In this document: piece by piece, positions 9 through 38,533 of the stretch
Numbering within the stretch: position 1 is the first letter of the stretch
Layout of the letters: every line of letters starts with the position of its first letter
DNA from: a virus
DNA length: 40,987 bases
Direction: 5' to 3' (one strand)
Virus record (IMG/VR): IMGVR_UViG_3300025687_000106
Span: 1 to 40,987 of that record
Made by a program: the position numbers and the translations under genes
Notes under the pieces: model-generated
The model's database searches: none
What the model saw: the letters and a program-made list of their open reading frames with translations, nothing else
Told to the model about the DNA's origin: nothing

Positions 9-81
9 GGGGTTATAGCTCAGTTGGTAGAGCGCCTGCTTTGCAAGCAGGATGTCAGCGGTTCGAGTCCGCTTAACTCCA
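9..81 (+). tRNA. tRNA-Ala (anticodon TGC)
   Basis: Full cloverleaf: 7-bp acceptor stem (9-15 with 74-80, one G-U pair), D arm, anticodon stem CCTGC/GCAGG with loop TTTGCAA, and T arm with TTCGAGT loop. Anticodon TGC reads alanine codons. The 3' CCA is not encoded, unlike the tRNA-Glu at 20154. It is much more GC-rich than the phage genes, so it could be a host tRNA at an integration boundary or an acquired phage tRNA. Confidence 0.95.
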
Positions 82-105: not shown

Positions 106-681
106 ATGGCAACTTTATCCGAAGTATTGTTAGCGGTAAATAAAGTATCTGAATCATTGGATACTGAAGTTGAAAGTGCTCGTCAAAAGGTTACTACAAT
201 TTTAGTTAAAGTTGATGATAGGGTAAGTGCTCGTGCAGATATGGTTCAGGCACTTAAAGATGCTAAGTTAAAGCAAGGTGATAACGACGATAATAATCCA
301 CCATCTTTTGGTTCTTCTGATTTTGTTATTGGTTCTGTTCCAGGATCTACATTTGCTGGAATTAAGATAAAAGAAACTAATAATTCGGTTATTAGATTTA
401 AATTTAAAGGAAAACGTGGAGGTTCTGGTGCAGGTGCTGCGGAGACTAAAAAGTTTGAGTGTGGTCAAGCAGTATATGCAGCTATTGCTTTTATGAAAGG
501 GGATAAAATAACTTCTGCAGATTTCAATGAGGAAAATATTAAATCTGCAAGTAGTATGTATGATATTGATGACACAATTGCAAACATTAAAACTTTAAAT
601 GATGAATGGCACGAATCATGTGTGAAAGGTGCAAATGAACTATGGGAAAAATTAAAAAAAGATTTAATAGATTTTAATTAA
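106..681 (+). CDS. unknown 191-aa protein, UGA-free, possibly a virion protein
   Basis: Not recognised. The N-terminal third (residues 1-55) is helical and coiled-coil-like, followed by an acidic/Asn linker near 57-65, a beta-rich middle and a Gly/Ala patch around 104-111, then helical C-terminus. It starts 25 bp after tRNA-Ala. All 13 glycines are GGN and none is UGA, a property shared in this window mainly with the major capsid protein. I infer a highly expressed, perhaps structural protein; there is no homology evidence. It could also belong to the host if the left edge is an integration boundary. Confidence 0.75.
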   Translation: MATLSEVLLAVNKVSESLDTEVESARQKVTTILVKVDDRVSARADMVQALKDAKLKQGDNDDNNPPSFGSSDFVIGSVPGSTFAGIKIKETNNSVIRFKFKGKRGGSGAGAAETKKFECGQAVYAAIAFMKGDKITSADFNEENIKSASSMYDIDDTIANIKTLNDEWHESCVKGANELWEKLKKDLIDFN

Positions 682-1122: not shown

Positions 1123-1494
1123 ATGAGTCAGTTTACTAAATTTAATGCTATAAGACCAATACCTAAAGAAAATCTTTGGATTACTACTGAGGAATTAGTT
1201 TTTTATGAAAACGATGATTTGACTTGAGAAAAATACATTGTTCCAGTTGGATTTAAGTTTGATTGAGCATCCATCCCTAGAATATTATGGGTATTGTTTG
1301 CTCCTGTAGAACCAAAAACTATTTCTAGTGCTGCACTACATGACTTCCTAGTTAGAACTAAAATATGCTGATACCGGAAGACTAACTGTTTGTTTTATAA
1401 AGCCCTAAGAACAAGTAATTGAATACTAAAGAGTTCTATTTTCTATATATGAGTTACACTAGGAACATGGATATTTTACTATTTTAGAAAATAA
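1123..1494 (+). CDS. DUF1353-family phage protein with C-terminal membrane segment
   Basis: Residues near 48-62 carry the family signature VGFKFDGASIPR, followed by a segment ending in AALHDFLVR, as in the DUF1353 domain found near lysis or tail genes of many phages. The Gly of FDGAS is a UGA, so the signature only appears with UGA=Gly. The last ~20 residues are hydrophobic and look membrane-spanning. Biochemical function of DUF1353 is not established. The 123-aa length suits the family. Confidence 0.85.
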
Positions 1495-2421: not shown

Positions 2422-3075
2422 ATGAATAAAAGAGAAAGTTTAATATTTTATAGAAGTTTCTATGAAGCTATAAAAGAATTAGATATAGAGAATCAATGAA
2501 AAATTTATAATGCAATATTTAAATATTGATTAGACTTTATTGAACCTAATTTAGAATGAATATCTAAAACTATATTCACTTTAATTAAACCTCAATTAGA
2601 TGCAAATATTAAGCGATTTAAAAATTGAAGTATAGAAAAAAAAAGCAAAACAGAAGCAAAACAGAAGCAAAAAATAAGCAAAGTACAAGCTAATAACAAT
2701 AACAATAACAATAACAATAACAATAACAATAACAATAACAATAACAATAACAATAACAATAACAAAGAAATAGAGATAGTCACAACTGAAGTTGCTCCCA
2801 AAAAATTAACATTAGAAGAATATATAAAAAAAGAATTTAGTTTAGATTTTATAAAAGAAGTATATGATAAATTTTGATTATCAAAAAAAGAATTTAAAGA
2901 AGAATGTAATGCTTTCGTTGAAAAATGGAAAGAAAAATCTCCAAATTGAAAAAAAGAAAGATGGGAGAAAGAAAAAACATTTGACCCAAAGTTGAGATTT
3001 AGAACATGGATGAGAAATAGTAAGAAATGGAATAAAGTATGAGATAAACAAAAAAATAAAACTATTATTATTTAA
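2422..3075 (+). CDS. DUF6291-like replication-module protein with a 24-Asn run
   Basis: The first ~70 residues (ESLIFYRSFYEAIKEL, then GKIYNAIFKYGL and IKPQLDANIKRFKNG) match the DUF6291 pattern seen in phage replisome-organiser-like proteins. A basic linker leads into exactly 24 consecutive Asn (residues 91-114), then a second helical, Trp- and Lys-rich domain. The Asn tract separates two folded regions, like a flexible linker. The gene is preceded by an attenuator leader. I infer a DNA replication role from the family; DNA binding is not shown. Confidence 0.75.
2692..2763 (+). repeat. (AATAAC)12 hexanucleotide tract encoding Asn24
   Basis: AAT and AAC alternate perfectly for 72 bp. Slippage by 6 bp would keep the frame and change linker length, so length polymorphism between close relatives is expected. 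Confidence 0.95.
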
Positions 3076-4194: not shown

Positions 4195-4569
4195 ATGGTA
4201 CCTAAAGAAGATTTTGAAATAGAAGTATTTTCTAATCGGTTAAGAAGTAAATGATATAAATTTAATAATATAATGAATGAGACTGATTGACATTCAATTT
4301 ATAAATGAGCTAAAAGAAAAAGATTATGAGTATCTAAATGATTTCCTGATTTTTGTATTATATTAAAAAGAAGAGCTTTATTATTTATAGAAATGAAAAG
4401 ACAAAGACCTATTGGTAAAACTTGAAAAATATTAAAAAGTCCTAGTAGTATATCAATAGAACAAATAGAATGGATAGAAGCTATAAATAATTGTAATAAT
4501 GTAGAAGCTAGAATATGTTATTGAGCTGAGCAAGCTAAAAAAATAATTAAAGAATTAGAAAAAAAGTAA
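4195..4569 (+). CDS. VRR-NUC nuclease
   Basis: A 124-aa single-domain PD-(D/E)XK nuclease of the VRR-NUC type, usually a structure-specific or Holliday-junction-type endonuclease in phages. Seen: GVSKGFPDF with the catalytic Asp near residue 52, then LLFIEMKR with E66 and K68, and a C-terminal SIEQIEWIEAINNC helix followed by GAEQAKKIIKEL, all in family order and spacing. It stands alone between two promoters. Likely processes branched DNA during replication, recombination or packaging. Confidence 0.85.
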
Positions 4570-4694: not shown

Positions 4695-4907
4695 ATGAAA
4701 AGGTATAAAATTGTAAATATAACTGAGGAGAAAATAGTTTGATACTTTTCTGAAGATTGAGCAAAGGATTTTGTTTTAAAGAAAAATCCTAATGAACGTT
4801 TGTATCTTGAATCAATGTTTTGAAATATTGTTACATCAGTTACTGATACAAATACAAATGAAATTTTTGTAATATGGGAAGTGCAAGAAGGGAACAAAAG
4901 TGAGTAA
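4695..4907 (+). CDS. unknown small protein (70 aa)
   Basis: First gene of the nucleotide-metabolism operon. The sequence (KIVNITEEKIVGYFSEDGAKDFVLKKNPN) looks like a small beta-rich domain. The start abuts a T-run without a Shine-Dalgarno sequence. No family recognised. Confidence 0.55.
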
Positions 4908-4929
4908 TTTATTTAGTAAATTTAATAAA

Positions 4930-5373
4930 ATGATAAAATTTTTGAAAATTTGAGATACAAAAACACCTACAAGAGGTACAGAATATTCATCAGGGATAGA
5001 TATATATATTCCTAATGATTTTGAAACAACTACAATGAAAGTATGAGATACTATTCTTATACCGACAAGATTAAAATGTATTATAGAACCATGATTTGAT
5101 TTCACACTTAAAGAAAAAAGTTGAGTAGCTTTAAAGAAAAATTTACAAGTTTGAAGTTGTGTAATTGATGCTGATTATAGAGGTGAGTTTAATATACATT
5201 TTACAAAAATAGCTTGAGAACCTATAGAATTAAAAGCTTGAGATAAAATAGTTCAGTGAATTGTAAGACCAGTTGTATTATGAGATATTGAAATGATTTC
5301 TGAAGAAGAATTTGAAAAAGAAAATAATACAATGAGAGGTTCTGGTTGATTTTGAAGTACATGAAATAGATAA
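4930..5373 (+). CDS. dut: dUTPase (trimeric, dUTP diphosphatase)
   Basis: Hydrolyses dUTP to dUMP and PPi, keeping uracil out of DNA and feeding dUMP. All five motifs are visible in order: I (SSGID, 20-24), II (KSGVA, 63-67), III (G..VIDADYRGE, 75-86), IV (DKIVQGI, 105-111) and V (RGSGGFGSTG, 136-145). Several glycines of motifs II-V are UGA, which makes this gene the clearest proof of the code. Length 147 aa is typical. A GTG at 4900 would add 10 residues; I chose the ATG because motif I then sits at the usual distance from the start. Confidence 0.97.
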
Positions 5374-5375
5374 TT

Positions 5376-5756
5376 ATGAATAAAACAAGAGAAATGTATA
5401 CTCAATTACAAGATAAAAATTTGTATGAGTTATTAAGACGTAAAGAACAATATAGTTGATATCAAGAGAATGATTATCAAAAATATATTAAAGATACTAT
5501 ATCAGAACTTTTAGAATTACAAGAATGAATAGAAAATAATGATTGAGAGAATATAGAAGAAGAATTAATGGATGTTATTATGCAGATTTGACAATTAATA
5601 AACAAATTGTTAAATGATTGATTAATAAACAAACTTGACTTTTGAAAACAAAAAAGTAAAATACTAAAAAGGTCACCAAACCTTAAACTTGGTAAATATA
5701 TTTGATTACAACAAGAACATTATGAATGGATGAAATACAAAGCCTCTCAAAGATAG
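5376..5756 (+). CDS. MazG-like all-alpha NTP pyrophosphohydrolase
   Basis: Residues ~48-80 give the MazG pattern: ELLELQEGIE, then ENIEEELMDVIMQIGQLI, with the metal-binding Glu/Asp set EExxD, followed by FGKQKSKILKRSP (the K...RR/RP tail). Such enzymes hydrolyse (d)NTPs to (d)NMPs. In phages that make modified cytosine, an all-alpha enzyme of this superfamily removes dCTP; the neighbouring predicted dCMP hydroxymethylase makes that role attractive here, but it is inference. It starts 2 bp after dut and overlaps the next gene by 35 bp. Confidence 0.82.
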
Positions 5757-6009
5757 TGAATGAAAAGCGGCTTTACAATATATACAACCAGATTTTTTAT
5801 TACAAATGTGAGAAGTATTAAGAATGTGAGCTGAAAAATATAAACCTATGTCATGGGTTTGAGTTGATACAGAACTCCACTATGCAAGTGCTATGAGACA
5901 TTTATTAGCTTGGAAGAAATGAGAATTAGTAGATAAAGAAAGTTGATTATCTCATCTTATTCATGCGGCTTGTAATTTACATTTTATACATTATAACGAA
6001 AAAAAATAA
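5722..6009 (+). CDS. DUF5664 dNTP nucleotidohydrolase-like protein
   Basis: Carries the DUF5664 signature GAEKYKPMSW, then ELHYASAMRHLLAW, GESGLSHLIHAACN-like segment (here KESGLSHLIHAACNL). These proteins are annotated as dATP/dGTP diphosphohydrolases or pyrophosphohydrolases in the MazG fold. The 95-aa length is normal. The frame overlaps the MazG gene end by 35 bp and the next gene's ATG by 1 bp, so this is a compact nucleotide-pool cassette. Confidence 0.85.
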
Positions 6010-7073
6010 TGATATATATAATCCCATTAGGAGACCAATTCCCTACAACGCAATTATTAGATTATAATAAAATGAGACCTGATGTTTACTATATATTACA
6101 TTCTTTAGAATGAGAAGAAGTAAAAATAATATGTAATACAAGAAATAAATATCAGATAGAAAATAAACATTATAATTTATTGGATTATAATGAATTAGAT
6201 TTAAAAATAAATGAAAATGATATACTTATTATATACAATACACCTTTTATTAATTTTTGATGATTATGGTGAAATGAATATAAGAAACAAATAGAATTTA
6301 TTAATAGATTTAATAATAATAAAGTTTATACATATGTTTTTGATTTAAATAAATCTTTTAGTTTTAAAATGATAAATAAGATTTGTGATAAATTTAATTT
6401 AGAAAAACAAAAAACTATAGATATTATTTCAAATTCTACATTTTTAAGTTGAAATTTATATAATAGAGATAAAATGATAGAAATATATTCAGAACAATGA
6501 ATAAATGTAAAAGAATTTATTTATATACCTGTTATATGAAATGTAAGAAATTTAATAGAATATAAAGAAATAAAAGAAGAACCACTTTATGATACTATTT
6601 ATTATTGAACTACTCGTTGATGAGCAAGAAATAAATTTATAAAAAAGTATTATGAAGATATGGAATGAAATCATTTATTAATATGACCATGGAATAAAAT
6701 ATTAAATAATGATAATCACTTTTATAAAAGCAAAACACAATTTAATGAATTATATAATCTTATTAATAATTCTAAGGTATCTATAATGACGTGAGATGAA
6801 AGTTATTATAACAATAGTATACATCATAGATTAATTGAATTAAGTTTATGTGGTACACTTATTCTTATTGATTATGATTATGATATAGAATATAAAATAT
6901 TTTGAGAAGAAAATAAACATTGGTATATTGAGAATAAAGAAGATGTACATAATATGATAAAATTTTTAAAAAATAATCCTAAATTAAGAACAAAATATAT
7001 AAAATATCAAAGAGAACTTTTAGAACAAAAATTTAATACTTATACAAAATTACAATATGAAAGATTTATATAA
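6009..7073 (+). CDS. GT-B-like glycosyltransferase, possible DNA-base glucosyltransferase
   Basis: 354 aa. The C-terminal half has the CgeB/GT-B-type layout: IYYGTTRGGARNKF (a loop like the second nucleotide-binding domain start), then LLIGPW, then SKVSIMTGDESYYNNSIHHRLIELSLCGTLILID and a helical tail with NPKLRTKYIKYQRELL. The N-terminal half is a Rossmann-like domain. It shares 17 bp with the downstream thymidylate-synthase-family gene, so the two are translationally linked. That pairing recalls phages that glucosylate hydroxymethylated bases. Alternative: a surface or polysaccharide glycosyltransferase. Confidence 0.72.
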
Positions 7074-7890
7074 AAATATATTAAGAGATTTATTAGAAAA
7101 TTGAAATGACTCTGCACCAAGATGACAAAATATAAAAGAATTACTTAATTTTAGTGTAAAAATAGATGATATACTTAATGTATGATATGAATATCCATCA
7201 AGAAAATTTCTATATAAATATATATCAAGTGAATTATTATGGTATCTTTCATGAGATTTATCAGTAGATAATATATGACAATATGCTAATTTATGGAATA
7301 CTATTCAAAATGAAGATTGATTAGTAAATTCAAATTATTGATATTTAGTATTTTATAGAGATATTTTAACAAATAATTGATGAAATCAATACGAATGGGC
7401 ACTTAATAGTTTAAAACAAGATAAAGAAAGTAGACAAGCATTTATAAGATATAATCATGATTGATGTCAAGAACTATTTGAAAAAGATGTGATATGTACA
7501 TATTATCAACAATTTTTTATAAGAGATAATCAATTACATTGTATTAACTCAATGAGAAGTAATGATATTATATATGGATTTACTGCGGATGTTGTATGGT
7601 TTAGTTTAGTACATCAAAGTTTATATTTAGATTTAAAAGAAACTTATCCTGAATTAGAACTATGATGTATGTGGCATAATGCTAATTCAATGCATATATA
7701 TGAACCAATGTTTAATAAAGCTAAACAACTTATTTTAGAAGAATGAACAAATATAAAAATAGAACTGAAACAATCTTTATATGAACAATTAGATAAAGAT
7801 TATGATAAATTATGGGAAATACTAAAATATACTACAAACTATAAACAATTTATTGAAAATAACTTTTTTATTAAAATAACAAAAGAATAA
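7057..7890 (+). CDS. thymidylate-synthase family enzyme, predicted dCMP hydroxymethylase
   Basis: 277 aa with the core of the ThyA fold: catalytic Cys147 in DVICTYYQQFFI, phosphate-binding R167-S168 in SMRSND, and H213-Y215 in MHIY. At the position of the Asn that selects dUMP in thymidylate synthase (E. coli LPFN) this protein has Asp178 (FTAD). An Asp there is the known hallmark of T4-type dCMP hydroxymethylase. The Pro before the catalytic Cys is Ile. I therefore predict 5-hydroxymethyl-dCMP formation. Neighbours (dUTPase, MazG, glycosyltransferase) fit a modified-cytosine pathway. Confidence 0.85.
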
Positions 7891-8368: not shown

Positions 8369-8941
8369 ATGCAATTAGTTAAAGATATAAATACATTTTT
8401 TAGAAAAGATAAACAATATTGAATAAATGAATTATTTAAAGTAATGTATTCATTTTGTATTGAACAAAATAATTGTTTTATGTTAACGAGTACATATAAA
8501 ACTAAATGATTAAATAGAAATAATCATAGAAAAATAATGTGATTATTAAAAAAATATAAATTTGTAAAAAGTTGGAAAGTATATAATTCTAAATATAAAA
8601 AGAAATGTACTTACTATAGTTTATCCACAAAATTATATAATATATGTAGAAAAATATCAACAAAATTAGTTAATAAATATAATTTTATACAATTACATAA
8701 TGATATTAATATAAATGATGTAAAAATATTTATAAAAAATATATATAAAAAAACTGAATTTATTATTGATACTAATACTAAAATAACGAAACATATTTTT
8801 AGATTAAAATGAATAATCTATAAATTATTTAGAGATAATCAATGAATAAAAATATCACAAAATATATGATTTAATAAAATAAGAATATATAATTTTATTG
8901 AATTTAATAATTTAGTAATGAAATGATATGAAAAACAATAA
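8369..8941 (+). CDS. leader-controlled basic protein, module 1 (winged-helix-like)
   Basis: 190 aa, Lys-rich. The N-terminal ~85 residues (YGINELFKVMY, KTKGLNRNNHRKIMGLLKKY, then KSWKVYN and CTYYSLS) read like a winged helix: helices followed by a beta wing. A second basic alpha/beta part follows. It is clearly paralogous to the minus-strand gene at 31914-32462, with roughly half of the first 85 residues identical by eye, including DIN.FF, YGI.ELFK, KGLNRN and KSWK. Function unknown: autoregulatory DNA/RNA-binding protein or a toxin of a type III-like pair. Its end overlaps the next gene by 14 bp. Confidence 0.8.
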
Positions 8942-13970: not shown

Positions 13971-14285
13971 ATGAAAGAAAAAAGAGAATGGACAAATGAA
14001 ATATATGATACTCCACCAGAGAAAAGATGAATAAGAGATTATTTGTATTTACTCAGTAAATGAGTAACGCAAGAAGCAAGAGAGAAATTCCATGCTTGAG
14101 ATATTTTTATAAATGGAGCAGTGTGCGTACACTGTAAAGATTTTATAAGAAGTATGAATGGACATGATTTTAAAACTTGTTCTTGTGGAAAAGTATCTGT
14201 GGATTGATGAAGTTGGTATGCAAGAAGAGTTGGAAATCCAAAGGATTATATCGATGTGATAGAATATTTTACAGATATTAAATAA
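13971..14285 (+). CDS. DUF7695-like phage protein
   Basis: 104 aa. Matches a very widespread phage family: CVHCKDFIRSMNGHDFKTCSCGKVSVDGGSWYARRVGNPKDYIDV (CxxC...S.N.HDF..CSCG..VDGG..Y.RR.G). Two consecutive UGAs encode the GG of VDGG. Metal binding is likely from the Cys set; function unknown. Confidence 0.85.
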
Positions 14286-14759: not shown

Positions 14760-15098
14760 ATGTCAATAATATACTGAAACTGAAACTGATACTGATATTG
14801 AAACTGAAACTGAAACTGATACTGATACTGATACTGATACTGATACTGATACTGAGACTGAAACTGATACTGAGACTGAAACTGATACTGAGACTGAAAC
14901 TGATACTGAGACTGAAACTGAAACTGATACTGAAACTGATACTGAGACTGAAACTGATACTGAGACTGAAACTGATACTGAGACTGACACTGAAACTGAA
15001 ACTGATACTGATACTGAAACTGATACTGAGACTGAAACTGATACTGAGACTGAAACTGAGACTATAATAAAATAGTTAAAACTTTAATTACTAAATAA
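14760..15098 (+). CDS. Gly-X dipeptide-repeat protein, UGA at every second codon
   Basis: Read with UGA=Gly, ATG 14760 opens a 112-aa protein: five leader residues, then 48 Gly-X units with X = Asn, Tyr or Asp, then a short tail. A higher-order unit Gly-Asp-Gly-Asn-Gly-Tyr recurs. It has a family 1 variant cassette at its start, and the next gene begins 7 bp after its stop. The frames giving Thr-Asp/Glu and Leu-Lys/Ile are also open across the tract, but lack a start with this context. A disordered, sticky or silk-like protein is the natural reading. Alternatively the DNA repeat itself matters. Confidence 0.7.
14775..15062 (+). repeat. 288-bp hexanucleotide repeat ACTGAN
   Basis: Forty-eight uninterrupted 6-bp units TGANAC-type, with N mainly A, T or G and one C, and one TAT variant. 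Many units are grouped as 18-bp ACTGAG-ACTGAA-ACTGAT blocks. Size changes by unit slippage would keep frame. Confidence 0.95.
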
Positions 15099-20153: not shown

Positions 20154-20230
20154 GAGACTATGGGCAAGTTGGTTAAGCCGCAAGACTTTCAATCTTGAAA
20201 TCAAGGGTTCAAATCCCTTTAGTCTTACCA
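20154..20230 (+). tRNA. tRNA-Glu (anticodon TTC), CCA encoded
   Basis: Acceptor GAGACTA/TAGTCTT (one G-U pair), anticodon stem CAAGA/TCTTG with loop CTTTCAA, T arm AAGGG-TTCAAAT-CCCTT and encoded CCA. The loop centre is TTC (positions 34-36), so it reads GAA/GAG. GAA is a very common codon here, so the phage may boost supply. Confidence 0.93.
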
Positions 20231-22124: not shown

Positions 22125-23504
22125 ATGTGATTTGTAAGCTGAACTAAAATAAAATTAACAGCAAAACTTAATGCAGCAGATACAAGTTTAACAGCAGATA
22201 CAGATGTGTGAATAACTGCAGGTCGTTTGTATTGAGTGAATAATAATCAGGAAGAATGGATAGATTTTACTTGAGTAGCAGCAAGTTGAAGTAATTATAC
22301 ATATTCATGATTAACTAGATGATTAAGCCAAACAGCAGACCCTGCTACAGCTTGAACATGAAAAACATGGATAGCATGAAGTGAATTTGTAGTAGTACAA
22401 ATGCATGACCAAATGAGTGATAAACAGAATGGAAGTCCTGTAGCTGTATATGCTGATGCAACAGCGAGAGATGCTGCTATAACAAGTCCAAGTAATTGAA
22501 TGTCTTGTTATTTAACAGCAGAATGAGTATTTAGTGATTATATATGATGAGCATGGACTGATAGAGCTGCAGATACTACACAAAACATGAGTGAAACAGT
22601 TGCTTGAAGATGAGAATTATGAACACAAACTGAAAATGATAATGGTACAGAAACATGAGGTACATGAGCTCCTTTAGTGACAAATCCATTAAGACTATGA
22701 AGAAGTATTCAAAAACAAGCATATACTTATGATGAAGATACATGAGCTGCGAATGCTTATGTAGTTACACTTACTCCTGCTCCAACAGCCTACATAGAAT
22801 GAATGAGAATCAGTGTTAAAATATGAGTTTGAAATACAAACACATGAGCAAGTACAATAAATGTGAACAGTTTATGAGCTAAAGCAATACAAGATAGAGA
22901 TTGAGATGCATTATCAGCTAATCAACTTATAGAAGCACAATTATATGATTTAATATATGATGGAACACAATTTAAATTAATTACAGTTGAAAAAGCAAGT
23001 GATAGTGATGTTACAACATGAACAGATACTATAAAATATGCTTCTCCAAAACAATTAAAAGATACATATTGACAATTATATGGTACAACAGTGTCAGTGG
23101 CATTAGAACAAAAGACATCTAGTTGAACTTATGATTATGAGATAGCTATTTGAGCAGCATGAAATTATTATGAAGTATGGTTTACGATATGGGCATGAAA
23201 TACAGCAGGTTCTCCTGATGCTCAAGCTGAGAGTGTTTTTGTTAAATGAATAACTTGATGAGATAAAACAGTATGGACTTCATGAACATCAAATGTAAAT
23301 TTTTGAACACAACCATGAACACCAGTTTTTCCTACATGAAGTAGAAAGTTAACACTACCTGCTGTTACATATTGAAGTGATTCAGCTACAATAAATAGTA
23401 TAACAATTAATTGAAGTTGAAACTTAGTAATAAATTATACAGCAACATTAGCAGCATGAGGTGAAACTCAAATAGATTGTTATTATGCTAATATTACAAA
23501 TTAA
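22125..23504 (+). CDS. tail fibre-type protein (459 aa)
   Basis: Residues ~190-285 match a common phage fibre module: NPLRLGRSIQKQAY, AYVVTLTPAPTAYIEGMRISVKIG, NTNTGASTINVNSLGAKAIQDRDGDAL, LYDLIYDGTQFKLIT. The rest is repetitive Thr/Ser/Gly/Ala beta sequence with many UGA glycines. Likely binds the cell surface or sits at the baseplate. It ends with an Ala/Gly-rich strand and a Cys-Tyr-Tyr tail. Confidence 0.75.
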
Positions 23505-30291: not shown

Positions 30292-31917
30292 ATGAATAAA
30301 GAGAAAGAAATAGTTTCATTGGAACAATTACATTTACAAAAAATACAAAAAATTATTAAAGAAAAATGTAAAATTTTAAATGAAGCAGCAAAATCTGATG
30401 AAACTAAACAAGTACTTATAGAAATATGTAAAAAAGACCCTATCTACTTTTTTACTTATTTTTTAGTTACAGACCGTAATCCTGGTTTAATTCCTGAACA
30501 ATATTGAAATGAAATACCTTTTATACTATTTGAATTTCAAGAAGAATTTATTAAAGATGCTTGGGATTGTATATTAATGTGAAGATTACCTCCTGAAGAA
30601 AGAACTGAACCAACTGATATGTTTAGTGAAAAATCTCGTCAAATGTGATTCTCATGGTTATTTGCTTGATTACAACTTTATGCTTATATATTTCATGATA
30701 TGAAATCTTTATATATATCAATGAAAGCAGATGAGGTAGATAGAGCATGAGATATTAAATCACATTTTGAAAAGATTCGTTTTATGATACGTAATCTACC
30801 TCAATGGATATTACCAAAATGATTAAATAAAGAATCAGGTACAGAACATAATAAATCTATGGTTATTTCTCGTTGAGATTGAACTTGAGTTATTAAATGA
30901 GAATCTGCTAATCCTAATGCTTGAAGATGAGGTACTACAGCTTTTACAATCTTTGATGAAATGGCTTTTATGCAATATGCTCAAGCTATTAATATGGCAA
31001 TAGCTTCTTCTACTCCTTGTCGTTTCTTTAATAGTACACCAAACTGAGAATGAAATGAGTATTATAGAATGAGAAAATTAGCAGTTGATTGAAAAATAAG
31101 ATATCATTCTTGCATGCGGTACGAAAATCCTTTTTATACTAAAGAATGGTATAAATGGAGAACTGAGTCTATGACTAAAACCCAAATTGCTCAAGAAATT
31201 TTAATAGACTATAATACTGCATTAGTTTGACGTGTATATCCAGAATATAAACATTGAACAGAATTAATTGAATATGATGATAGTTTACCGTTGTATATAG
31301 GGATTGATAATTCACATGGTGGTCAAGATAACAATGCTCTCGTTGTATTACAAAAAGATTGACATTATTTTAATATTATTGATAGTTGTGAATTCAATTG
31401 TAGTCCTAGACAAATGGCAGAAATAATGGCTAAACAACCTACTATACAAATGAGTAAAAAACAATTGGATTTTTATAATAAATATAGAGAAATGAAATTA
31501 CCTATATTTGTAAGTGATTGTTATGATACACATACTTCAGTTTGAGATAATACAATATTTTGATATTATCAAGATGTATGAATATTTTTAAATATACCAT
31601 CTACTAGAAAAAAACAAGAACAAATACAAATAGTAAGTTCTAATTTACATAGAGTAAGAGTAAGTGAAACTTGTGCAGATTTTAGTTCATGTATACAAAA
31701 TTCTATTTATCCTGAAATTAAAGAAAATAGTATGAGAACTACTCCAGCTACTTTACCAGTTCATTCTTGGGCGAGTCATATAAGGACAAGTTTTGAATAT
31801 TTAATTGTATGGTTAATAGAACAAGAAAAATATACTAATGTAAAACCTAAGAGAATAGCAACAGAAGAAAGAAATCCAATAACTTGAGAAGTAGAAACTA
31901 AATATGTCTATATTTAA
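30292..31917 (+). CDS. terL: terminase large subunit
   Basis: Packaging ATPase/nuclease, 541 aa. Walker-A-like SRQMGFS at residues 115-121 (Gly from UGA), a coupling region with SMKADEVDRAGDIKSHFEKIRF, Walker B TIFDEMAF with D222-E223, then STPNGEGNEYY. The nuclease part begins at YIGIDNSHGGQDNNALVVL (D339) and includes FVSDCYDTH with a later acidic residue, as in RNase H-like terminases. The length is normal. It is unusual that the minus-strand gene is inserted between it and the portal; their stop codons overlap. Confidence 0.93.
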
Positions 31918-32462
31918 GTTTTTTTCATAATTAAATGATTAAATTCAAATATTGTATATATTGTTTTTCTTAAATTATTTCTTTCTGTTATTAACCATAG
32001 TCATTTACTTTTAAATAAACAATATAAAACTCATCGTAACCTAAATAATCTTTTTCACTCAAATATAATAAATTCAGTTTTAGGATACATTTTTTTTATA
32101 AATTGTTGTATCTTTTCGATTCTCATTCATTCTTTTAATTCAATATATGTAGATTTTTTACTTAATTTAACTATAATATCTCTACAAATCATATATAAAT
32201 CATTACTTATACTTCTATAAGTACATACTTTTCAATATGTTTTATTATATTTTTTCCAACTCTTTATTTTTCAAGCTTTTTCTAATAAATCTAATATTTT
32301 TCTTAAACTATTTCTATTTAATCATTTAACTTGATATGTAGTAGTTAATAAAAAACTATTATTATTTTCTATACTCTTAGTATAAAAAGTCTTAAATAAT
32401 TCAGTTATTCAATAATCTTTATTTTTTTTAAAAAATCAATTTATATCTTGTATTATTCTCAT
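31914..32462 (-). CDS. leader-controlled basic protein, module 2 (winged-helix-like)
   Basis: 182 aa, the only clear minus-strand gene. Paralogue of the 8369 protein: DINGFFKKNKDYGITELFKTFY, QVKGLNRNSLRKILDLLEKAGKIKSWKKYN, CTYRSISNDLYMICRDI, then FIKKMYPKTEFII and IFEFNHLIMK at matching positions. A helix-helix-wing layout is likely in the first 85 residues. It has its own promoter, structured leader and terminator. Its stop overlaps the terL stop. The position between terL and portal is that of a moron. Confidence 0.82.
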
Positions 32463-32839: not shown

Positions 32840-34792
32840 ATGTTAGTTTGAAATGAATCTAAAAATACAGAGAAAGAATTAGAAACAATAAAACAAATAA
32901 CTGAACCAGAAGTAAAACCATATATTTCAAGTAAAGAAGATGAAGAGATTATTTGATTTATTACTACAAGAAAAAGACTTATGGCTGCTAAAAGAAGTCA
33001 AATGGATAAATCTTGGAAACAATATCAAAAACAATATGAAGCATTATTTGTACCTTATAGTGATTGAAGAAGTTCTAGTAATGTACCTTTAGAAAGAGCT
33101 ATAGTTGAATTATTTGTTGCAGAAGCTATTAAAAGACCTACTACATATAATTTTAATGCATGAATTGAATATGATTTTCAATCTCAAGTATTAGAAAGAG
33201 TATGGGAAGATGATTGGTCTATAAATAATAGAGATAATGAAATATTAGATAATGAGTATTTAACTGCTATATATGGTACATCTATTATATATAATGGTTA
33301 TAAAAGAAGTTATAGAGTTATAGAAGATTTTGATTGATATAATGAGGAAACTGGTAAAATAGATTATGAAAGAAAAATGCAAACAAAATCTGATATATTA
33401 TTAGAAAATATAGATATTAGATATTTTTGGATAGATGAAAGAGCAAATTCTATAGAAAAAGCTATTGATTGTATATATGAAAGTTATATTACATATGAAG
33501 AATTTAGAGAATTTTATTTAGATAATGAATATGATGATGAGAAATTAAATGCTATTGTTCCTACTTATCAAAAACAAGATGAACATAGACCTTATGTTAT
33601 TAATGAAGAAAGATGAGATTGAGAAGCTAAATTTGTTAAAATAACACAATATTGGAATACAAAATTAGATAGACATTATACTATAGCTAATGAAAATGTA
33701 TTAATTAAAAAACATCCTATATTGAATGCTACTCATTGTATACCTTTTACACCAAGACAATATGGTAAAAATTTATTTAGTATTTATTGATATGGTTTAT
33801 GTGAAGCTTTAGTTACATTCAAATCAGATATTAATAATTTAAGAGAAATGTTGATGGAAGCTATTAAAAAATCTAATCAAGATGTAATAGCTTTATGAAA
33901 TTGATTAGAATTTGATGGTAATAAATTCGCATATAATAATCAATTTATAACATTTAAAGGTAATTTACAATGAAATTTTCATCAATTATCTTGAACTCCA
34001 CCAAATCAATCTATATTTACATATTTACAAGAATTATTTAAACAAATAGCTATATTTACAGGTATAGATATAATGAATATATTATGAGAACCACAACAAA
34101 CAGCATATCAAACAGCTGTACAAAAAGAAAGTTCTTTACAAAGAGTAAATGTAGTACTTAAAAATAGAGATGCAGCATTTGAAAGAATAGCAAATCAACA
34201 TAAAGATAATTTACAAATGTTTTATCCATTAAAACTTGTGAGAGAATTGGTAAAAGTTGATAAAGAAAATAATCCTATGGAAGAATGAGAAGCTAAATAT
34301 CCTACTATAGAAACAACAAAAGTTAAAGGTAAAAGATTTGCAAAAGATTGAATAAAAGAAGTATTTGAAGTTACTCCTGAAAAAATAAGATGAAAAATTA
34401 AAATAGATGTAAGTACTGATTTAAATACTCCAACTATTAATGAAGTAGAAAAAGCACAAAAATCTGAATTTTTTATTAAATTAGCAGAAATAACAAATGC
34501 TTATAATGCAGATAAAGATTTAGAAAGTATTATACCTAAAAAGAAAGCTATTATGGACCTTGCTGAACTTAATAATATAGATATTATGAGAAGTGATAAT
34601 AATGAAGTTGCAGAAGAAAAACAAAAACTTTATGAAGAACTTCAAAGTATGATGAAAGGCACAAGAACACCACAACAAAGACCAAATTTTGAATGAATTA
34701 AAAAAGAAGCTGAACTACAAAATATGGCACAAGTTGCTCCAGAAGCAGCAGTTCAATGAGAATTACCTACTACACCTAATATAGCAAGATAA
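32840..34792 (+). CDS. portal protein
   Basis: 650 aa. Helical core regions including TTRKRLMAAKRSQMDKSWKQYQKQYE, then a beta-rich clip/stem portion, and IAIFTGIDIMNILGEPQQTAYQTAVQKESSLQRVNVVLKNRDAAFERIANQH, which is characteristic of portal stems in short-tailed phages. The size is in the range of P22-like portals. Its DNA-exit ring would be bound by terL. C-terminal third is coiled-coil and Gln-rich. Confidence 0.82.
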
Positions 34793-37015: not shown

Positions 37016-37492
37016 ATGGCAAATCCAACAGATTCTGTTAATAATGTACAAAATTTTGAAAGAGCAAAAGGTGTAACAGAAATTGTAGAAGTTTTATTTT
37101 CTGCTTCTGTTGCTGTAGAGGAAGGTTCTTTAGTATACCCAAATCCTAGTGCTGCGGGACAATATACTAAAGCTGATGCTACTGCTGGTTGAAATTTTGG
37201 TGTTATTAGACAAACAATTGCATCTACTGATGATGATTATGCTTCAACAAAAACTGTAAAAGTTGAAGTACCTAGAGAAAACAATGTTGAATGGTTCTTT
37301 ACAGTATGAAGTGGAACATTCACACAAGCAGATGAAGGTAAATTAGTTGACTTAGCTGATGAAAAATCAGTTGCTGTCGATGGAACTACAGCTCCAACAT
37401 TTTGGATTACTAAATATATTTCAGCGACTCGTTGAAAAGGTATATTAGCTTGAAATCTTGGTTCTGGTCCTGCTTTACCTGCTACAACTTAA
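37016..37492 (+). CDS. head decoration-like protein (158 aa)
   Basis: Beta-rich, Thr/Ala/Gly-rich: VTEIVEVLFSASVAVEEGSLVYPNPSAAGQYTKADATAGGNFGVIRQTIA, which has the shape of capsid decoration proteins (DUF2190-like/LamD-type). Directly upstream of the major capsid gene. Most glycines are GGN, with only a few UGA, an intermediate between capsid and other genes. Confidence 0.68.
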
Positions 37493-37516: not shown

Positions 37517-38533
37517 ATGGCTGTTTTAACTACATTTAGTTACGAAGATTCAGTTGATTTGATTAATAGAGAGTTTGATGCTGGTAAGCTTAATCCTCTT
37601 GATAATTCAATGAAAGAATCAGGAATCGTAAAAACAAACACTGTTCCTGCGAATAGTGGAGGTACTAGAAGACATAAAGAAGTACCTGTAGGAGAACTTT
37701 ATGCTAATGATAAAGCTGAAGGTGGTCTCACTACAAAAACTAGAGTTCAACAAGGATATTATAAGGATACTACTGCTAGAAGTTTTTCTAAAAGTATTGA
37801 TATTACTTATGAAATGAGAACTCTTAATAAAGTAAATGAAATTTACAATGCTGCTAATTTTATTGGTGGTGTAATTACTAGAAGGGAAGATTTGAACTTA
37901 AGTTTATTCTTATCTTTTGGTACTGCTACTTCATATACTAATATGGATGGTAGAAGTGTAGATATTTCAACTGGTGATGGTTTATCACTTTGGAATACTT
38001 CACATACATTAACAGGTTCAAGTACTACTTATAGAAATAGACTTGCTAATAATCCAGCATTCTCTGAAGGTGCACTTGAATTAATGGAAGATTTATTCGT
38101 TACTAATATTTATACTAATCTTGGTGAACAAGTTGGTTGTACTCCAGATACTATCTTTTCAACTGATTATCCAACATTAGTAAATACTATAAGAAGGAAT
38201 TTACAATCTACTGCACAAATTTCAGCTCCAAATGAAGGTGTTGTTAATGTATATAAAGGTAAATATAAACATGTAATTCTTAATAAATTTGATATGAATG
38301 CAAATGGTGTTAAGGATGCTACAAAGAAAAATTATTGGGGAATGGCTGATTCTAAAATCTCTTCATTCTTCCATGATGTATATTCTTCTCCTGAAATGAA
38401 ATATCCAACTAACGGAAACAATGGTGAAGATATTGAAACCCTCGATTGGACTTTTACATCAATTGGGATAAATGACTCTTGTGTTGTTGCTGGTAGAGGT
38501 TTAATGTTCTCATCAGGTGATGGAACTGCATAG
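37517..38533 (+). CDS. major capsid protein (HK97-type fold likely)
   Basis: 338 aa. RHKEVPVGELYANDKAEG, RREDLNLSLFLSFGTA, SLWNTSHTLTGSSTTYRNRLANNPAFSEGALE, and a C-terminal domain with HVILNKFDMNANGVKD and a final beta strand are typical of phage major capsid proteins of the Mu gpT-like/HK97-type kind. All 29 glycines are GGN; none is UGA, in contrast to almost every other gene here. Followed by a G-rich hairpin. Confidence 0.85.
   Translation: MAVLTTFSYEDSVDLINREFDAGKLNPLDNSMKESGIVKTNTVPANSGGTRRHKEVPVGELYANDKAEGGLTTKTRVQQGYYKDTTARSFSKSIDITYEMRTLNKVNEIYNAANFIGGVITRREDLNLSLFLSFGTATSYTNMDGRSVDISTGDGLSLWNTSHTLTGSSTTYRNRLANNPAFSEGALELMEDLFVTNIYTNLGEQVGCTPDTIFSTDYPTLVNTIRRNLQSTAQISAPNEGVVNVYKGKYKHVILNKFDMNANGVKDATKKNYWGMADSKISSFFHDVYSSPEMKYPTNGNNGEDIETLDWTFTSIGINDSCVVAGRGLMFSSGDGTA

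Follow-up and report, generated by a model that had tools for sequence, protein, structure and literature searches.

The dUTPase gene of this locus is crossed by in-frame TGA codons, which raises the question of which residue UGA encodes and of how completely the code of this virus is described. The window, i.e. the whole stretch of 40,987 bases that was analyzed (IMGVR_UViG_3300025687_000106, 24% G+C), is the record of a tailed phage. Under table 11, stop-free frames of at least 200 aa covered 4% of the window. Opening TGA raised this coverage to 52%, as compared to 4% with TAG and 34% with TAA opened instead. A total of 59 ORFs tile the record, all except one on the plus strand, and together they contain 639 in-frame TGA codons. 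The 58 ORFs that end within the window do so in TAA (52) or TAG (6), which follows from the way the ORFs were constructed. UAA and UAG are still stops, and the opening of TAG brings no gain in frame coverage. With a repeat ORF of 48 TGA codons excluded from the codon counts, 591 TGA and 199 GGN codons remained, and TGA accounts for 591 of the 790 glycine codons (approximately 75%). The first-pass annotation had taken UGA as glycine throughout. This holds in the sense that TGA is a sense codon genome-wide, but 3 of the 59 ORFs contain no TGA, among them the gene for the major capsid protein. The features discussed are listed in Table 1.

Table 1. Coordinates of the features discussed, as positions in the window.
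Feature	Position	Strand	Remarks
tRNA-Ala(TGC)	9..81	+	not a UGA reader
TGA-free ORF	106..681	+	phrog_1462 (E=1.7e-19); 13 GGN
DUF1353 protein	1123..1494	+	PF07087 (E=2.5e-13); 5 TGA; CGG at 1375-1377
AATAAC repeat	2692..2765		perfect; 12.3 copies
VRR-NUC nuclease-like protein	4195..4569	+	PF08774 (E=1.3e-6); 7 TGA; CGG at 4237-4239
dUTPase ORF	4900..5373	+	GTG start, ATG at 4930; stop TAA; 12 in-frame TGA
dUTPase, MazG and dATP/dGTP diphosphohydrolase-like genes	4900..6009		
Glycosyltransferase-like and dCMP-hydroxymethylase-like genes, overlapping	6009..7890		PF13524 (glycosyltransferase-like)
dCMP-hydroxymethylase/thymidylate-synthase-family protein	7057..7890	+	PF00303; 12 TGA
Paired protein, first member	8369..8941	+	
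DUF7695 protein	13971..14285	+	PF24749 (E=8.5e-18); 5 TGA
Repeat ORF	14760..15098		48 TGA
Hexanucleotide repeat	14771..15063		approximately 49 copies of ACTGAN
tRNA-Glu(TTC)	20154..20230	+	not a UGA reader
Tail gene	22125..23504		
Terminase large subunit (TerL)	30292..31917	+	terL matches; 22 TGA; CGG at 31117-31119
Paired protein, second member	31914..32462	-	
Portal-like protein	32840..34792	+	named by position and conservation; 18 TGA
Small virion protein	37016..37492	+	phrog_1731 (E=0.0097, weak); just upstream of capsid gene
Major capsid protein	37517..38533	+	HK97 fold (predicted model); 338 aa; 0 TGA, 29 GGN

The excluded ORF had been considered as additional proof of glycine and was dropped, since its sequence is a hexanucleotide repeat in which only the last base of ACTGAN varies, with an 18-base super-repeat. 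Read in code 25, the repeat gives Gly alternating with Asn, Tyr or Asp, all 48 glycines being TGA, and it is either a gene or a satellite. The AATAAC repeat encodes a poly-Asn run in a DUF6291 protein.

The dUTPase ORF was identified by a Pfam match (PF00692, E=1.9e-20) and, with TGA as X, by its match to solved dUTPases (8y1q_A, E=1.3e-15). When the alignment to the solved structures was inspected visually, a residue stood opposite 11 of the 12 TGA codons; six of these 11 face Gly, the remaining five face Q, F, L, N and L, and Trp is faced at none. All three TGA codons of the C-terminal G-F-G-S-T-G motif face Gly, and the glycine of the SRQMGFSW motif of TerL is also written TGA. What had been called a ThyA-family core does match the thymidylate synthase family of Pfam, but the nearest solved structure is a T4-type dCMP hydroxymethylase (1b49_A, E=6e-19 with TGA as X). 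The gene for this protein overlaps a glycosyltransferase-like gene, and the pair adjoins the dUTPase, MazG and dATP/dGTP diphosphohydrolase-like genes, suggesting that the phage DNA has a modified cytosine of the T4-like kind, possibly glycosylated.

For a neutral test of the residue, TGA, CGA and CGG were masked everywhere before alignment. Gly was the majority residue at 93 of the 152 masked TGA sites of the window, and a 20-way likelihood over these sites gave lnL values of -235.6 for Gly, -457.8 for Ala as the next best and -826.7 for Trp. With TGA written as X, the conserved columns at window TGA sites were Gly in 15 of 15 cases across all relatives; against 44 standard-code loci, Gly was the majority at 30 of 48 sites and in 5 of 5 conserved columns. 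The 44 loci were relatives recovered via the capsid protein, with a further 18 loci from recoded contigs, and the residue counts over the 44 + 18 loci were made on non-overlapping genes. Codon exchange was counted in 58 gene pairs with TGA-open relatives, omitting V5 (L006), a near-copy of V4; these alignments set TGA to Gly in advance, and the masked and X-based tests are the neutral ones. The TGA codons of the window stood opposite GGN 179 times and opposite TGG never, while the TGA codons of the relatives stood opposite GGN of the window 102 times and TGG once, which sums to 281 TGA/GGN against 1 TGA/TGG.

Of the 185 TGA sites in the window at which a relative has a sense codon, one had Trp as the majority residue. 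The statement that no Trp-type position is filled by TGA holds but for this site. Trp was in the majority at 23 of the 29 window TGG sites, which bears out UGG as tryptophan. The masked alignments, likelihoods, codon exchanges and conserved columns likewise uphold the proposal that UGA is glycine, and in the tabulation of aligned residues neither Trp nor any other residue prevailed over Gly. On these sequence comparisons, we regard UGA as glycine in the window as settled. That UGA is instead tryptophan (code 4), or that a host with the standard code suppresses it or reads through it as a leaky stop, is exceedingly improbable and ruled out by the profile data: the low G+C is like that of mycoplasma phages and code-4 phages exist (PMC11210395), but the Trp likelihood, the exchange counts, the absence of a suppressor tRNA and the presence of TGA by the hundred, in early genes too, speak against these readings.

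The 338-aa protein among the TGA-free ORFs had no family match and no match among named phages. A structure model built on 45 relatives reached a pLDDT of 84, an earlier one from 6 sequences having been too poor (pLDDT 36). Comparison of the model with HK97-fold capsids gave Foldseek E-values down to 7.8e-11 and VIA-align Z scores up to 14.8; against the HK97 capsid 1ohg_A, Z was 14.4 and the rmsd 4.2, with 250 aligned. The predicted structure confirms this protein as an HK97-fold major capsid protein.

Among the 42 genes tested, TGA was strongly depleted in the capsid gene (0 of 29 glycines, p=8.5e-19), in the TGA-free ORF near the start of the window (0 of 13, p=1.2e-8) and in the gene for the small virion protein (4 of 15, the other 11 being GGN; p=1e-4). 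The second of these has a G+C content of 0.33 and resembles (41%) a Synechococcus phage S-SCSM1 virion protein; from its sequence it could be an abundant protein or a recent import. The capsid gene was located in 18 of 29 contig groups. Its TGA share was reduced in all 18 of these UGA = Gly groups, whose contigs are related and include near-copies (L105/L106, D10/L107, L115/L117), and the one-sided p-value was below 0.05 in 17 of them, the exception being L097 (p=0.053). In L033, outside the 18, the capsid gene has 0 TGA and 20 GGN (p=2.7e-5). Among genes with at least 10 glycines, the capsid gene ranked 1-3 for depletion in 17 of 17 contigs and first in 10, and the other top ranks were often held by its direct neighbours.

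The depletion is common to the relatives, and inertia does not explain it. At conserved 4-fold sites, the third bases agree between the window and its relatives barely above random expectation, and in TerL and the portal gene TGA and GGN exchange freely over the same distances, which makes inertia unlikely. Composition is also unlikely, since AGA/Arg (0.86 and 0.86) and GGA/GGN (0.24 and 0.25) are unshifted in the window capsid gene while ATA/Ile drops from 0.62 to 0.12; ATA/Ile was likewise lower in 10 of 10 contigs (L010 included). A neutral origin, through higher local G+C or through a standard-code ancestry so recent that GGN had too little time to become TGA, would fit the G+C of the capsid gene (0.317 versus 0.24 in the window) and the many standard-code relatives of the capsid protein. 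We nevertheless consider such an origin improbable, given the static AGA and GGA shares, the near-random synonymous sites, the free exchange in TerL and portal, and a tail gene of similar G+C (0.321) that has 45 TGA and 8 GGN.

The drop in ATA/Ile with AGA/Arg and GGA/GGN unshifted suggests that the capsid gene is under general translational selection and that UGA would be a poor codon there. Selection for fast or accurate translation would exclude UGA from the most heavily made virion proteins, the capsid gene, with glycine written GGU or GGA, being the strongest case of avoidance. The reason for the avoidance is what we infer here; the rare incorporation of Trp for Gly at UGA reported by proteomics (Hanke et al., PMC4032931) points to a possible reason in accuracy.

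The first-pass annotation had assigned genetic code 25, which fits UGA as glycine and UGG as tryptophan but is probably incomplete for CGG. The window contains 5 CGG and 4 CGA codons. At TerL residue 276, a conserved Trp position, CGG faces W in 21 of 28 aligned residues. At residue 15 of the VRR-NUC protein, CGG faces W in L082 and L083 (near-copies) and in L086, and Y in L162, L084 being unaligned there. At residue 85 of the DUF1353 protein, six phage homologues have R (1), K (3), H (1) and A (1). Of the remaining two sites, one faces Y in a single relative and the other is uninformative. Thus, two of the three informative CGG sites are at Trp positions and one is against.

Trp was the majority residue at 3 of the 5 CGG sites in the clade of the window, and Arg at none, two of the five being a single I/V/Y portal column; in the pooled likelihood over these 5 sites Ile came slightly above Trp because that column was counted twice. 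Control AGA/CGT sites had a Trp majority at 0 of 583 sites in the window clade and at 3 of 1932 overall. For CGA, Arg was the majority residue at 2 of the 3 sites in the clade and Trp at none. A code identical to NCBI table 25, with CGG at Trp positions by chance substitution, is unlikely but carries appreciable weight: the DUF1353 site faces Arg and Lys and the record holds only the five CGG codons, whereas the TerL and VRR-NUC sites face Trp and the majorities in the clade differ from those of the AGA/CGT control. The reading of CGG as tryptophan in the window is likely, if thinly evidenced. The host would then read CGG as tryptophan with CGA staying arginine, and the true code would be intermediate between table 25 and that of Absconditabacteria, in which UGA is Gly and both CGA and CGG are Trp. 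Separate NCBI table numbers exist for CGG/CGA reassignments. Taken jointly, a host with UGA as glycine, translational selection that purges UGA from the capsid gene, and a host in which CGG is probably Trp and CGA Arg make up an account that we hold with good confidence.

Among the related phages, the capsid gene of L052 has no TGG, and 49 of 50 relatives have W opposite its CGG; on these alignments, CGA and CGG are Trp in L052. In seven pooled Trp-type contigs, of which L105, L106 and L114 are weak members, Trp was the majority at 22 of 39 CGA and 7 of 17 CGG sites and Arg at none of either, while in eight other contigs CGA had an Arg majority at 108 of 212 sites and a Trp majority at 2. In a TerL tree built with TGA, CGA and CGG masked, all UGA = Gly phages and L104 were set apart together by a branch with 100/100 support, and the Trp/Arg state of CGR required 3 changes. 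L052 (Trp) was sister to D10/L107 (Arg) with 99/99 support, which indicates that a sense codon differs in meaning between phages that are close relatives. A single clade of CGR = Trp phages was rejected by TerL (p=0.0006) but not by a second tree based on the portal-like gene (p=0.13), for which no family match was found, and we are less sure of the number of switches. There is an even chance, in our judgement, that the phages form one TerL-joined clade with UGA = Gly throughout and CGA/CGG as Trp or Arg by member, in which the branch of the window now has CGG as Trp and CGA as Arg. There would have been approximately three moves between host codes, with CGR codons rewritten each time, and the sense code would be a fingerprint of the host lineage.

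A capsid tree of 43 of the 55 capsid loci (L008, L009, L031, L046, L057, L061, L062, L063, L077, L079, L080 and L081 were left out) divided the UGA = Gly phages into two groups. A twofold origin of UGA = Gly had been considered on this basis and was dropped because an AU test did not reject a single clade (p=0.144) and TerL joins both groups. L104/L010 (IMGVR_UViG_3300002307_000094, one contig) has 46% G+C and a TerL within the UGA = Gly clade. It had been taken as recoded by ORF coverage and was set aside, its 9 TGA sites showing no glycine signal (Glu best at -21.5, Gly -31.7). This phage probably uses the standard code, perhaps as a return to it or as a code-11-compatible member. Two A+T-rich phage records (G011 and G012; L165-L167; 23-27% G+C) have TGA-open stretches at L082/L083; the window has its VRR-NUC gene in common with both and its ERF-family gene with G011, and no match to the window capsid protein was found in either.

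ARAGORN and Rfam identified only the two tRNAs of Table 1 in the window, neither of which reads UGA, and ARAGORN found no tRNA in the scanned related TGA-open loci. With no UGA-reading tRNA found in the phage, it would have to use the tRNA-Gly(UCA) of its host. The host that translates the phage would have UGA as glycine and would read the phage UGA with this tRNA, and A+T mutation bias would have made UGA the default glycine codon. The code of the phage and the literature (PMC8629427, PMC10746230) lead us to infer an Absconditabacteria/Gracilibacteria-type host. Dense in-frame TGA across the genome, a feature of the phages of these bacteria, is present in the window. A UGA = Gly phage contig, RXKB01000065.1 (G010:C75; L018, L028, L029), was found in a MAG labelled Candidatus Dependentiae. 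One other stretch of this MAG has 54% G+C as compared to 36-37% in the phage contig, so that the contig is probably misbinned. Within the window, the two paired proteins of Table 1 are alike by eye in their translations and lie on opposite strands, one of them inserted between TerL and the portal-like gene; they are possibly a mobile or regulatory gene pair.

What the ribosome of the host does is reported by the phage genome. A capsid gene without UGA suggests that in these uncultured bacteria UGA, although assigned, is second-rate as a codon for glycine. This bears on the opposite suggestion of Liu et al. 2023 (PMC10746230) that tRNAs reading UGA may be abundant and that genes dense in TGA may be efficient; the window phage, contrary to this, bars UGA from its capsid gene. 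If it is true that sister phages differ in CGA/CGG, the reassignment of sense codons would not keep viruses out for long, and the host group could be named from the codon meanings of a phage where a spacer match is lacking. Annotation of such phages with table 25 may place Arg where some have Trp. UGA = Gly phages are already known, and the core claim is accordingly not new; the avoidance of UGA in the capsid gene and the CGR sense-codon variation among phages look new. In the open-access literature searched, no phages with CGA/CGG as Trp were found, and only PMC8629427 was relevant; as far as the consulted text goes, it reports phages for AGG = Met only.

Liu et al. (PMC10746230) describe phages and prophages with code 25 from Absconditabacteria and Gracilibacteria, which the window resembles in its dense in-frame TGA as glycine and in the code of the putative host. 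Those authors tie hosts by CRISPR spacers, whereas the host placement of the window rests on the code and the literature; in its consulted parts, their paper makes no mention of CGA/CGG or of capsid genes. Phages whose hosts keep the standard code but which themselves recode TAG or TGA are described as often carrying suppressor tRNAs and using the code in late genes (PMC10746230, PMC11210395). The window shares with them former stop codons in-frame in phage genes, but differs in that no suppressor tRNA was found and in that TGA is depleted in the main late protein. According to Shulgina and Eddy 2021 (PMC8629427, in the parts consulted), Absconditabacteria are inferred to read CGA and CGG as Trp as well, and CGG is inferred to be Trp in some Gracilibacteria. 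CGG at Trp positions in the window is like the Absconditabacteria code, as are CGA and CGG as Trp in L052 and L109, whereas CGA in the branch of the window looks like Arg. Finally, a ciliate and Blastocrithidia are reported to avoid reassigned stop codons in their highly expressed genes (PMC10553269, PMC12153298). The likeness lies in a reassigned codon that is common genome-wide and depleted in the top-expressed genes; the eukaryotic examples concern nuclear genes, whereas here the genes are those of phage virion proteins and the codon is UGA for glycine.
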